A stretch of 64,000 bases of DNA, from the NCBI GenBank assembly GCA_011620555.1, contig WOYY01000042.1:1-64000 (forward strand). The letters run 5' to 3'. Positions within the stretch are counted from its first letter, which is position 1. Every line of letters begins with the position of its first letter. Position numbers and translations under genes: made by a program. The notes under the pieces were generated by a model. The model ran no database searches. It worked only from the letters and a program-made list of their open reading frames with translations, and was not told the DNA's origin. Source of the DNA: Anaerolineaceae bacterium (GTDB lineage Bacteria > Chloroflexota > Anaerolineae > Anaerolineales > Anaerolineaceae). Below, in pieces: positions 1-32,836 of the stretch.

Positions 1-262
1 TCGCCACGATTCAACCGCTTCATTATACCATCCGCTCCCCACGCGGCAGGCAAAGGCCAGGTCAGCTCCCAATACGATCGCAAAGTCAATTCATTCTGGA
101 AAAGGATAATTTCACCGCTTCGCAATTAACAAAACACCCCTTCCTCCCTCTGACATCAGGGGAAGGAACGAGGATGGGGTCAGGTTTAAGTCGCAAGCAT
201 GCGTTTCAAGACATCATTTTTGTCATTCATTAATCGGCTATTTTTAACGCCATTGCCCTGGC

Positions 263-29579: not shown

Positions 29580-30695
29580 TTAACGAATAAAGCTTTCAAC
29601 TGCTAAGACTTCACGGGGCAGGTCCGTCAGGCTTTGCAGGCCGTCCCCGGTCACGACCACATCATCCTCAATCCGCACGCCCCCCTTGCCGGGCAGGTAG
29701 ATCCCCGGCTCAACCGTGAAGGTCATTCCTGGGGTGAGCGTCAGGTCGTTTTCAGCATAGATATAAGGCGCTTCATGAGGTTCCATTCCCAGGCCATGCC
29801 CGGTGCGGTGGAAGAAAGCGGGACCATATCCCGCCGCTTCGATCACCTCCCGCGCGGCGCGGTCCACAACGCCCGCAGCCAAACCCGGCGCGCCGGCTTC
29901 CCGGCCAGCCTGGTTGGCCTGGCGGACGATCTCGCCAATGCGCAGCAATTCCCCATCCACCTCGCCAAAAGTGAAAGTCCGGGTGATGTCGGAGAGATAG
30001 CCCTCAAAAGACGCGCCCCAGTCGACCAAAATCAGGTCGCCCGGCTTGAGGGCGCGATGGGTCGGGACCGCGTGAGGATTGGCGCTGTTCTCGCCAAAAG
30101 CCACGATCGGCTCGAAAGGCAGGTCAGGGTCCGACCCCGCCCGCAGCAGCTGGACGATCAGTTCGTTGGCCGCCGCTTTCTCGGTGATCCCCGTATGCAG
30201 GGTCCAGAGCGTCGCCAGCAGGGCTTCCTGGGCGATGATGACCGCCTGGCGCATCCTGGCAATTTCGTCAGCATCTTTGTTCAGGCGCAGCGCGCCCAAG
30301 ACCTCGGAGCCATTGATGAAATCCACACCTCTAAAAGCGCTGTTCAAATAGTGCAGTTCAAGGAAACGCAGATGTTCCGGTTCCACGCCAACCCGGCCGG
30401 TCTCAAGTTTCAAAGCCGCGCTGGCCTGTTCAAAAGCCGTATGCCAGGAGGCTGGGTCATCCCCATAAGTGAAAGCCTGGAATTCAGCGGCATCGCCGGT
30501 CAGCTTGCCCTTCTCGAGTTCAGGCAGAATCACGGCCGTCTCGCCCTCGCGGGTGATGATCAGCACGATCGGCCGTTCCATCAGATGGAAATGCAGCCCG
30601 GAAAGGTAGATCAGGCTCTGGCCGGGGTTGAGCGCCACACCCGCCAGATCATGGGCTTTGATCAGTTCAACGCATTTTTCGATTCTTGTATTCAC
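29580..30695 (-). CDS. Xaa-Pro peptidase (M24 family)
   Basis: 371 aa. M24 enzymes release the N-terminal residue before proline or cleave X-Pro dipeptides using two metals. The ligands are visible: LVDWGASFEGYLSDITRTFTF (two Asp), HRTGHGLGMEPHEAPYI (His), TVEPGIYLPGKGGVRIEDD (two Glu). The N-terminal creatinase-like domain spans about 1-130. The start is GTG, with AAGGAG seven bases before it. A TATAAT at 30728-30733 lies divergent to the cysK promoter. With the three M42 enzymes and the peptide importer it fits a peptide-fermenting lifestyle. Confidence 0.92.
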   Translation of the reverse strand: MNTRIEKCVELIKAHDLAGVALNPGQSLIYLSGLHFHLMERPIVLIITREGETAVILPELEKGKLTGDAAEFQAFTYGDDPASWHTAFEQASAALKLETGRVGVEPEHLRFLELHYLNSAFRGVDFINGSEVLGALRLNKDADEIARMRQAVIIAQEALLATLWTLHTGITEKAAANELIVQLLRAGSDPDLPFEPIVAFGENSANPHAVPTHRALKPGDLILVDWGASFEGYLSDITRTFTFGEVDGELLRIGEIVRQANQAGREAGAPGLAAGVVDRAAREVIEAAGYGPAFFHRTGHGLGMEPHEAPYIYAENDLTLTPGMTFTVEPGIYLPGKGGVRIEDDVVVTGDGLQSLTDLPREVLAVESFIR

Positions 30696-30841
30696 CAGAC
30701 ATCTCCTTGGATTTCAAATCGGCGTTCATTATAACGTAGTCAGCAATCGAAAGACATAGCCGGATGACTAGTTTATCCCTGAAGTGATTAGTCCCACTAG
30801 TTTTTGATCAATATCAAACCTTTTACATCCATTTCAACAAC

Positions 30842-30869
30842 TTGACTCTTCGCCAGTTCTCGTTATAAT
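30842..30869 (+). promoter_or_regulatory. Promoter of the cysK-cysE leader
   Basis: TTGACT (30842-30847), 16-base spacer, TATAAT (30864-30869). This is the closest match to the sigma-70 consensus seen in the window. Transcription should start near 30876-30880, giving a leader of about 240 bases before cysK. Confidence 0.85.
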
Positions 30870-30902
30870 TGTGATAATAATAGTCTAATTATGGAGCTTT
30901 TC

Positions 30903-30938
30903 ATGTTCAATTGCTTGTGTCTGAGGCGGGGTCGCTAG
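30903..30938 (+). CDS. Cysteine-containing leader peptide of the cysK-cysE attenuator
   Basis: 11 codons, MFNCLCLRRGR, then TAG. Two of eleven codons are Cys (TGC at 30912-30914, TGT at 30918-30920). GGAG at 30893-30896 stands six bases before the ATG, an excellent ribosome site. An in-frame ATG at 30891 would add MELF. The peptide lies directly ahead of cysteine-biosynthesis genes, and its second half is complementary to the next leader segment. Cys-rich leader peptides that control sulfur genes are known in actinobacteria; one of this form in Chloroflexota is not known to me. Assigned from sequence logic only. Confidence 0.8.
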   Translation: MFNCLCLRRGR

Positions 30939-31014
30939 TCACCGCCCAGACGTTCTAACTGAAAGACATTTCAGCCAGTCGACCTGGGCGGCGGACAGCC
31001 CCGCATATTTTTTT
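30919..31014 (+). promoter_or_regulatory. Four-segment transcription attenuator of cysK-cysE
   Basis: Segment 1 (30919-30929, GTCTGAGGCGG) pairs with segment 2 (30942-30951, CCGCCCAGAC) over 10 bp with one bulged A; the leader stop codon is in the loop. Segment 2 (30942-30949) can instead pair with segment 3 (30984-30991, CTGGGCGG), 8 bp perfect. Segment 3 (30988-30994) pairs with segment 4 (30999-31004) as an all-GC stem with an ACAG loop and one bulged C, followed by ATA and seven T (31008-31014): an intrinsic terminator. Segment 1 begins in the second Cys codon. Ribosome stalling at Cys would favour 2:3 and read-through; finishing the peptide would favour the terminator. Confidence 0.78.
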
Positions 31015-31049
31015 CTGCGGTGCAATGGTTTCGCTGCCTTTTGATTTAA

Positions 31050-31059
31050 TCGACTGGCT
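31050..31059 (+). promoter_or_regulatory. Distal partner of a long-range leader helix
   Basis: TCGACTGGCT is perfectly complementary to AGCCAGTCGA at 30973-30982, giving a 10-bp helix that spans the terminator. Because its 5' arm lies in the loop of the 2:3 helix and its 3' arm lies outside, the two would form a pseudoknot or exclude each other. Its role is unclear. Confidence 0.5.
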
Positions 31060-31119
31060 TTGCGTTTTAAAAGGTAATCATCTCAAGATGGAAAGACCAA
31101 TAAATTGGAGAAAGACTAA

Positions 31120-32052
31120 ATGAAGATTTATAACGACATCACTGAACTGACCGGCAACACCCCCCTGGTGCGCCTGAACCGCCTGACCCAGGATTCGTTG
31201 GCCGAGGTGGTCCTCAAATTGGAATATTTCAACCCCGCTCACAGCGTCAAAGACCGGGTCGGCGTGGCAATGATTGACGCAGCCGAGGAAGCCGGACTGC
31301 TCAAGCCCGACAGCATCATCGTCGAACCCACCAGCGGCAACACCGGGATCGCCCTGGCGATGACGGCCGCGGCCCGCGGCTATCAGTGCGTGATTATCAT
31401 GCCAGAGAAGGTCAGCTATGAGCGCAAGATGATGATGAAGGTCCTTGGGGCGGAGTTGATCCTGACCCCGGCGGAAAAAGGGATGCAGGGCGCCATTGAT
31501 GAGGCCCAGGAGCTGGTCGATTCCGACCCGCGCTATTTCATGCCCAACCAATTCAGCAACCCTGCCAACCCAGCGATCCACCGCAAGACCACGGCTGAAG
31601 AGATCTGGCGCGATACGGATGGCAAGGTCGATATCCTCGTCGCTGGGGTCGGCACGGGCGGCACGATCACCGGCGTGGGCGAAGGCCTCAAAGCCCACAA
31701 CCCCGGCATCAAAGTCATTGCCGTGGAGCCGGCTGCCTCTCCCGTTTTGGCCGGCGGCGAAAAAGGCCCCCACCCCATCATGGGCATCGGCGCAGGCTTC
31801 ATCCCCGAGATCCTCAACACCTCGATCTATGATGAGATCATCGAAGTGACCGGTGAGGACGCCTTCGCCACTGCCCGCGCCCTGGCCACTCAGGAAGGCC
31901 TGCCCGTTGGGATTTCCTCCGGTGCAGCCGCCTGGGCCGGGTTGCAGGTCTCGCAAAGGCCGGAGAATAAGGGTAAACTGATCGTGGTGATCATCCCCTC
32001 TTTCGCCGAACGCTACCTGAGCACCCCGCTCTTTGATGACATCCGGGATTAA
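31120..32052 (+). CDS. cysK: Cysteine synthase A (O-acetylserine sulfhydrylase)
   Basis: 310 aa, normal length. Makes cysteine from O-acetylserine and sulfide with PLP. The PLP lysine lies in [11 protein letters not shown] (about residue 43); the phosphate loop [13 protein letters not shown] and substrate loop [11 protein letters not shown] are intact. GGAGAAAGACTAA precedes the ATG. It is followed after 22 bases by cysE, so substrate-making and cysteine-making enzymes are co-transcribed. The 240-base leader carries a Cys-codon attenuator. Confidence 0.96.
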
Positions 32053-32074: not shown

Positions 32075-32836
32075 ATGGCAAGCACATCTACCATTGACTA
32101 CCCCCGATCGGTGCGGGTCAAGGCAGAAAAGGAAATCGGTTTGTTCAAATTGATTGTCGAGGATATCCGCTGCGCGCTGCTCCGGGACCCTGCCGCCCGC
32201 AACTGGGTGGAGGTCCTGTTCAACTATGCGGGACTGCACGCCATCTGGGCCTACCGGATCAATCACTGGCTCTGGACCCACAAAGTCTACTTCCCCGCCC
32301 GCTGGCTCTCCCAGATCGCCCGCCGGCGCACCGGCGTGGAAATCCACCCCGGAGCCGTCATCGGCCGCCGGGTCTTCATCGATCATGGCATGGGCGTGGT
32401 GATCGGCGAGACCGCCGAGATCGGCGATGAGGTCACGCTCTATCACGGCGTGACCCTGGGCGGCGTCAGCCTGGAAAAAGGCAAGCGCCACCCCACCCTG
32501 GGGCCTAACGTCGTAGTCGGCGCGGGGGCCAAGATCCTCGGCAATATCGAGATCGGGGCCGGCAGCCGGATCGGCGCGAACGCGGTGGTGGTGAGGCCTG
32601 TCCCGCCCGATTCGGTCGTGGTCGGCGTCCCGGGGCAGATCGTCAAACGCAGCCATAGGGAAGCTGAGGAAGCGATCGATCTGCATCACGACCAGCTGCC
32701 GGACACCCTCGGCGACGCTCTGCGCCAGGTGCTTGCCCGCCTGGACCGGCTGGAGGATACTCTCCAGGTGGCAGAAGACCACCGGATCGAGACCGACGAG
32801 AACGGCAACTGGATCGGCTCCGATTTCAGTATTTAG
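32075..32836 (+). CDS. cysE: Serine O-acetyltransferase
   Basis: 253 aa. Acetylates serine with acetyl-CoA, the committed step of cysteine synthesis. The N-terminal helical domain includes [19 protein letters not shown] and [17 protein letters not shown]. The left-handed beta-helix carries [30 protein letters not shown] and [19 protein letters not shown] charged C-terminal extension of about 50 residues ([15 protein letters not shown]) replaces the usual CysK-binding ending; the last residues GSDFSI still end in Ile, the residue that docks in CysK in known synthase complexes. GGAGGAGGAACACC precedes the chosen ATG. Confidence 0.95.

Follow-up and report, generated by a model that had tools for sequence, protein, structure and literature searches.

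The window analysed here, a stretch of 64,000 nucleotides from an Anaerolineaceae bacterium, contains a cysK gene followed by cysE, both of which score above the cut-offs of their families, in agreement with the sequence-only reading from which this analysis started. Upstream of cysK lies a leader with a sigma-70 type promoter, a Shine-Dalgarno-like sequence and a short ORF with two Cys codons (Table 1); the near-consensus promoter, the ribosome site and the 11-codon ORF claimed in that reading were all located. The ORF reads ATG TTC AAT TGC TTG TGT CTG AGG CGG GGT CGC TAG. Among 13 leaders of the same genus, both the promoter pattern (TTGAC[AT] and TATAAT spaced 15-19 nt) and a GGAG preceding the leader ORF are visible in 12, L015 being cut by a contig end. 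In many genomes of family f2 (e.g., leaders L044, L046, L053, and L060) the ORF starts about 20-25 nt past the -10 box, which makes the 5' leader very short, and no clear Shine-Dalgarno sequence precedes it. The region from 30875 to 31119 of the window folds with a z-score of -4.0, none of 200 shuffles being equally stable, and the window leader and its homologues are a real, conserved element.

Table 1. Features of the cysK-cysE leader and the genes that follow it (positions in the window)
Feature	Position	Strand	Evidence or remark
Sigma-70 type promoter TTGACT-16-TATAAT	30842-30869	+	11/12 consensus bases matched
Shine-Dalgarno-like GGAG for leader ORF	30893-30896	+	sequence
Leader ORF MFNCLCLRRGR, 11 codons	30903-30938	+	sequence; stop TAG 30936-30938
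Regulatory codons TGC-TTG-TGT (Cys-x-Cys)	30912-30920	+	Cys1 30912-30914, Cys2 30918-30920
Segment 1	30919-30929	+	partner segment 2 (30942-30951), 10 bp: 30919-30923:30947-30951 and 30925-30929:30942-30946, A30924 bulged
Antiterminator outer 5' arm GCGGGGU, within leader ORF	30926-30932	+	partner 30998-31004
Segment 2	30942-30951	+	pairing and swap test; partner segment 1, or segment 3 via 30942-30949 (helix 2:3, 8 bp)
Likely terminator hairpin, -38.0 kcal/mol	30974-31058	+	30974-30982:31050-31058 plus 30986-30995:31030-31039
Segment 3 and antiterminator inner 3' arm	30984-30996	+	30984-30991:30942-30949; 30994-30996:30938-30940
C-box GCCCCGC, antiterminator outer 3' arm	30998-31004	+	partner 30926-30932
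U-rich stretch TTTTGATTT after inner terminator stem	31039-31047	+	sequence
U-rich stretch TTTGCGTTTT after outer terminator stem	31059-31068	+	sequence
cysK, cysteine synthase A	31120-32052	+	TIGR01139 456 bits, cut-off 350.95
cysE, serine O-acetyltransferase	32075-32836	+	TIGR01172 244.8 bits, cut-off 210.65

Two side observations concern the region around the promoter. In several same-genus leaders (L036, L006, and L013) the -10 box is followed, ahead of the leader ORF, by a near-palindrome such as AAGATAATTATTATCTT, about half of which is retained in the window at 30870-30889. It resembles a Fur/PerR-type operator, and a second, protein-based control upstream of the leader ORF is possible. 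On the reverse strand at 29580-30695 an M24-type (Xaa-Pro) peptidase-like gene, for which every candidate name scores below the curated cut-off, is divergent from the cysK leader and has the intergenic region in common with it.

Homologues of the leader were collected by DNA search and with a model. The DNA search gave leader matches in 27 of the 147 genomes of the family (own genome counted), and the short matches beyond the genus centre mostly on the leader ORF. The model R1, built on 24 leaders with the C-x-C arrangement and including 6 bp of the outer antiterminator helix (1:C), gave 59 matches in 54 of 396 genomes of the class. These 59 matches, all read, together with 20 leaders of the family from the DNA search make up the set of 79 leaders used below, from which L026 (a 28-nt match with no leader) and seven repeats of other loci (L005, L008, L010, L017, L027, L029, and L032) were dropped. 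As R1 contains the six 1:C pairs and C-x-C seeds, the leaders that it finds are somewhat selected for both, and the TGY-N3-TGY pattern that defines the position of Cys1 is present in every R1 match. By sequence, the C-x-C codons lie within a short, ATG-started ORF in all 79 leaders, including all 59 R1 matches, i.e., every leader has a short ORF in which the end product of the pathway is encoded. Cys1 is TGC in 73 leaders and TGT in 6, which is a synonymous change only, and Cys2 is TGT in all 79, with 13 kinds of codon between the two. The stop codon is located 24 nt after Cys1 in 64 of the 79 leaders, and a crude Shine-Dalgarno pattern precedes the chosen start in only 41. The sequence-only reading had made its proposal depend on conservation of the Cys codons and on paired changes in related genomes; both were found, and the proposal survived.

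A C-x-C motif could bind metal, and it is conceivable that the peptide itself is what matters, with a nascent CxC(L)xRG peptide stalling the ribosome on a ligand, a redox state or a metal and acting through the same hairpins. The conserved Cys-x-Cys and an Arg codon 15 nt after Cys1 (CGG in 73 leaders, CGA in 6), mostly with Gly next, are what such peptide arrest would predict. However, as judged from the sequence alone, only the Cys residues and this one Arg are kept among variable neighbours: the codon 12 nt after Cys1 encodes R, G, W, S, K, E, or L, the middle codon takes its 13 forms, and neither the number nor the kind of residues before Cys1 is constant. The Gly changes to Ser or Glu when its pairing partner changes (L062 and L207), so its conservation is explained by the RNA helix. 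Peptide arrest is improbable, and the reading that we prefer is that the Cys codons are decoded as a measure of charged tRNA-Cys.

The sequence-only reading had claimed two alternative helices in the window, 1:2 and 2:3, and both are present with the lengths given there. The antiterminator is longer than first proposed, as 30926-30932 pairs with 30998-31004 and closes over helix 2:3, and what had been called segment 4 (30999-31004) is the distal antiterminator arm, paired with 30926-30931. The helices were evaluated by a swap test in which cognate arms were compared with arms exchanged between genera (33 representatives) or families (13 representatives). Cognate arms paired better than exchanged ones: across the 33 genera the z-scores were -4.1 for 1:C, -6.3 for 1:2, -4.8 for the extension, -5.2 for 2:3, and -9.1 for both the terminator and the outer terminator, against -0.1, 0.1, and 0.8 for control pairings. 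Across the 13 families every helix had a P of 0.012 or less (z -4.6 for 1:2) and the controls gave P 0.53, 0.96, and 0.79, i.e., covariation supports all six helices tested. When 2:3 was first tested, in wide windows (p+28..62 against p+62..115), no signal was seen (P 0.13 for genera and 0.27 for families), and the values of -5.2 and, for families, -2.5 were obtained with narrower windows anchored on the C-box. This anchor comes from R1, with its 6 bp of 1:C, and served for the 2:3, extension, terminator, and control windows; those for 1:C and 1:2 were fixed relative to the Cys codon. Helix 1:2 rests on the swap test, because in 83% of cases segment 1 still forms at least 5 bp with a shuffled segment 2, which makes the shuffled control uninformative.

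In all 79 leaders the stretch from GCGGGG to the C-box forms one closed stem, some with side branches, and in 78 it is closed by at least six consecutive pairs; none of the windows shifted by -60, +40, or +200 (n = 78, 79, and 79) is closed in this way. Since R1 contains those six pairs, the independent evidence for the closing helix is its covariation. A-U or G-U takes the place of G-C among the closing pairs of A3, and in distant leaders larger parts of both arms are replaced, e.g., GCGAGGG:CCCUCGC and GCGGGAAUAG:CUAUUCUCGC. Small ORFs and GC-rich pairings are common, and the ease with which shuffled segment 2 pairs could be taken to mean that a small ORF and GC-rich inverted repeats have come together by chance. 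That reading is hardly credible, as it is contradicted by the conservation across the class, the flat control pairings and the consistent gene context described below.

The RNA core is near-invariant in the leaders of the family (the Cys codons and GGCGGGG, then CCCCGC), as might be expected of a ligand-binding riboswitch or a protein-binding RNA, with the short ORF being incidental. Against this, Cys1 lies outside all proposed helices and yet shows only synonymous change, the stop is fixed at +24 in the 64 leaders mentioned, and in distant families the core is less strictly kept, its changes being compensatory. Nor is any Rfam family found at the element at the gathering threshold: the search returned only four tRNAs in the window, and nothing at the element in ten relatives. 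A search allowing E up to 10 gave two sub-threshold matches in the leader, which were taken as chance. The T-box model has no match in the window at the gathering threshold or in 30800-31200 with E up to 10. The SAM riboswitch (RF00162) has none in the window and only one in the ten relatives, at L188 458-641, which lies near the cysteine attenuator but on the opposite (reverse) strand and off the element. A riboswitch or protein-binding RNA is very unlikely, and we return to a translated ORF as the sensor.

The terminator differs from the one that the sequence-only reading had proposed, a 3:4 stem before T7. The T7 run exists (31008-31014) but the stem is weak, the 30984-31004 fragment folding with only -7.7 kcal/mol, and it is not conserved. 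Its 21-nt equivalent attains -5 kcal/mol in 29 of the 79 leaders, the window included, and is followed by a T-run of at least five in two, one of which is the window; the T7 run of the window has a counterpart in one of the 78 other leaders. The 3:4 stem was therefore rejected as a conserved terminator. What stands of the alternative-helix logic is helices 1:2 and 2:3, both of which covary, whereas the antiterminator is longer and the terminator is another hairpin, likely the large one at 30974-31058 with its later U-rich stretches, both of which are imperfect. As modelled, the window would thus have an intrinsic terminator with a U-tract that overlaps the antiterminator. A strict scan required a hairpin with a U-tract that has at least 10 pairs in common with the antiterminator 3' arm; 59 of the 79 leaders passed it and 20 failed, and a T-run of at least four is located 25-80 nt past the C-box in 69. 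The scan found no overlapping terminator in nine leaders (L198, L202, L205, L206, L045, L201, L204, L011, and L016), of which the first four are all the leaders of family f36 and the last two belong to the genus of the window. In these nine, control may differ or the scan may have missed the hairpin. In the f36 leaders the stop codon is part of an antiterminator-like helix that is nearly perfect, and control may be Rho-dependent or translational.

The same nine leaders raise the question of whether the element acts in general on translation initiation or through Rho, and not through an intrinsic terminator, for which the mycobacterial cys leaders offer a precedent (PMC1262725) and PMC13236596 a statement on translation attenuation. 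We find this quite unlikely. Against it, the structure in the window ends about 50-60 nt before cysK, the terminator stems covary strongly, and the T-run is at the expected place in the 69 leaders counted above.

The gene context was determined by tblastn with seven reference proteins (from the window and six of these loci) on the same strand within about 1.3 kb. Downstream of the 79 leaders lie cysK in 32 cases, a cysM-type synthase in 31, 3-mercaptopyruvate sulfurtransferase in 9, and O-acetylhomoserine sulfhydrylase in 1; two leaders (L038 and L047) are followed by DUF4395 genes and then cysK, two by a sulfite/nitrite reductase-like gene, and two (L188 and L196) by DUF4395 and a thioredoxin-like gene, where a search of about 2.6 kb gave no cysK. 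Of the 79 leaders, 75 are thus followed by a gene for a cysteine or sulfur enzyme, so that there, as in the window with cysK-cysE, the downstream genes make or charge the amino acid that is presumably sensed. For the 59 R1 matches, where genes were not part of the query, the numbers are 55 with a cysteine or sulfur enzyme gene, 2 with the reductase-like gene and 2 with DUF4395-thioredoxin. Seventeen further loci (L223 was left out as the same element as L224) have cysK in 5, a cysM-type gene in 5, cystathionine beta-synthase in 6, and DUF4395-thioredoxin-cysK in 1 (L217). Family names are from NCBIfam and Pfam, and those of the cysM, sulfurtransferase, and reductase genes are approximate, as their references score below the curated cut-offs; the reductase-like product could have nitrite as its substrate.

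The genes further downstream add to this picture. In the cysM operons checked (L044 and L208) the next gene resembles a JAB protease, an arrangement similar to the actinobacterial CysM-Mec route, and in the sulfurtransferase loci checked (L040 and L133) a SufE-like gene comes next. DUF4395 genes follow the element in L038, L047, L131, L217, L188, and L196, with cysK after them in the first four and a thioredoxin-like gene next in L188, L196, and L217, which suggests a thiol or cysteine role for the DUF4395 family.

A second model, R2, was built on the 79 leaders and used with E <= 0.001 in all scans. It matched 103 of 147 genomes and 36 of 40 genera in the family, 117 of 396 genomes (86 of them below 1e-5) and 69 of 222 genera in the class, and 40 of 400 genomes in the phylum. 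These are tallies of model matches, most of those beyond the 79 leaders counted without inspection of the sequence, and some genera have weak matches only. Upon inspection, the phylum matches outside the class in G712 and G837 contained no element, and neither L222 (a second match in the own genome, E 7.4e-4) nor L215, L216, and L221 were elements; L173 was judged a chance match. A pattern scan of all species genomes gave at least 117 stretches, with titles for 80. Among the 80 titled stretches listed, 22 are preceded by a Cys codon at a distance of two codons; 21 of the 22 are titled Chloroflexota or one of its subgroups, as opposed to only one (L092) of the other 58. When R2 was run as a control on 50 of the 58 genomes from pattern matches not titled Chloroflexota, 4 matched, the genome of L094 with 5.9e-6 and three others with 1.5e-4 to 8.7e-4; some of the R2 matches above about 1e-4 are therefore due to chance. 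L094, whose record is titled Nitrospinota bacterium, carries a genuine-looking element at 738-950 on the reverse strand, with the helix GCGGGGGUUACU:AGUGACCCCCGC, and a cysM-type gene of up to 52% identity to Anaerolineae ones; transfer, a wider range of the element or a mis-binned contig may each account for it.

The leader very likely controls cysK-cysE by ribosome-mediated transcription attenuation, with the supply of charged tRNA-Cys as the signal. From the ORF, the Cys codons, the covarying helices, the gene context, and the distribution we infer ribosome stalling, termination and a response to cysteine in the following way. With Cys1 in the A site the ribosome would cover the RNA to about position 30924, leaving GCGGGG (30926-30931) just free. 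When Cys-tRNA is scarce, the long antiterminator, 30926-30932:30998-31004 over 30942-30949:30984-30991, would form and occupy the 5' arm of the terminator, and RNA polymerase would read into cysK. When Cys-tRNA is plentiful, the ribosome would reach the stop codon and cover the 5' side of the antiterminator as well as segment 2, and the 30974-31058 terminator would form. Helix 1:2 can form before the other helices, and may cause RNA polymerase to pause or make termination more likely if the leader is untranslated. Assuming a ribosome footprint of -15 to +12 around the A-site codon, the expected number of antiterminator pairs before the terminator is transcribed is 22.5 bp if the ribosome is at Cys1, 16.2 if it is at Cys2, and 2.4 if it has reached the stop codon, which, together with GCGGGG being just free, fits attenuation by Cys-tRNA. 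A stringent two-state behaviour (more than 8 bp at Cys1 and less than 5 bp at the stop) is lacking in 15 of the 79 leaders. The naked RNA at equilibrium has 20.7 bp of antiterminator and 1.1 bp of helix 1:2, and prefers the antiterminator, so any termination without translation would be kinetic or absent. As attenuation is co-transcriptional, equilibrium folding of the full leader was not used to predict the outcome.

Homologous copies precede several routes to cysteine in the class, and the element would for this reason act as a regulon-wide switch. The routes covered are cysK-cysE, cysM with the JAB protease, cystathionine beta-synthase, O-acetylhomoserine sulfhydrylase, and mercaptopyruvate sulfurtransferase-SufE, and the regulon probably also includes the sulfite/nitrite reductase-like enzyme and the DUF4395-thioredoxin genes. 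We consider it probable that one homologous, sequence-conserved attenuator family has spread through Anaerolineae to many cysteine routes and forms a T-box-like regulon in which the translating ribosome is the sensor and the antiterminator begins within the leader ORF, at the point where the ribosome would end if it stalled at Cys1.

In trp- and his-type attenuators a leader peptide has codons for the end product, an antiterminator and a terminator exclude each other, a U-tract follows, and the genes downstream are biosynthetic. The element resembles them in all of these respects and differs from them in that the second antiterminator helix is formed from the last codons of the ORF and the C-box, and in that it is conserved in sequence and common to several kinds of operon. 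In T-box and S-box (SAM) leaders, one homologous RNA element controls many operons of a pathway. The element shares this property, whereas neither a T-box nor a SAM match is found at it and sensing would be by a translated ORF.

Cys-rich leader ORFs of mycobacterial cys operons have reportedly been described by Canestrari et al. in 2020. For these operons, Cys-directed attenuation is known or proposed (PMC1262725; PMC4633059), and the general logic of ribosome-mediated attenuation is also stated in PMC13236596 and PMC1262725. The mycobacterial leaders likewise have a short Cys-coding ORF upstream of cysteine or sulfur genes, but as described there their Cys runs are near the stop codon, there is no conserved terminator hairpin, and control is discussed as Rho-dependent or translational (PMC1262725; PMC4633059); the element has C-x-C and a covarying terminator instead. 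The uORFC-8-2 motif of Rhodobacterales, for which Cys-tRNA attenuation was proposed, likewise has a terminator and a short ORF that contains two Cys codons (PMC8632094). It is described as occurring only before cysS in Rhodobacterales and as having its Cys codons adjacent (positions 14-15) and inside the first stem (PMC8632094), whereas all 79 leaders of the element have C-x-C, Cys1 lies outside the stems, and the element is found in Anaerolineae before cysteine biosynthesis and sulfur genes, cysK in the window. The element thus differs from known or proposed Cys-directed attenuation in how its Cys codons are arranged and its antiterminator is built, in the genes that it targets, and in the taxon in which it occurs. 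In the open-licence literature no description of a cysteine attenuator in Chloroflexota was found, and term searches of the main text of two motif papers (PMC2864571; PMC11109978) and a terminator survey (PMC2965389) returned no such element.

The element provides a testable mechanism of cysteine control for a large class that is mostly uncultured and in which little regulation is known, and the compensatory changes make mutational tests straightforward. It would represent a ribosome-based attenuator that acts as a regulon-wide RNA family and not as an operon-specific device. The proposed regulon also points to genes whose role is unclear, such as those for DUF4395 and JAB-domain proteins, as likely to belong to cysteine metabolism, and operons of this kind can be annotated in uncultured genomes with the model.
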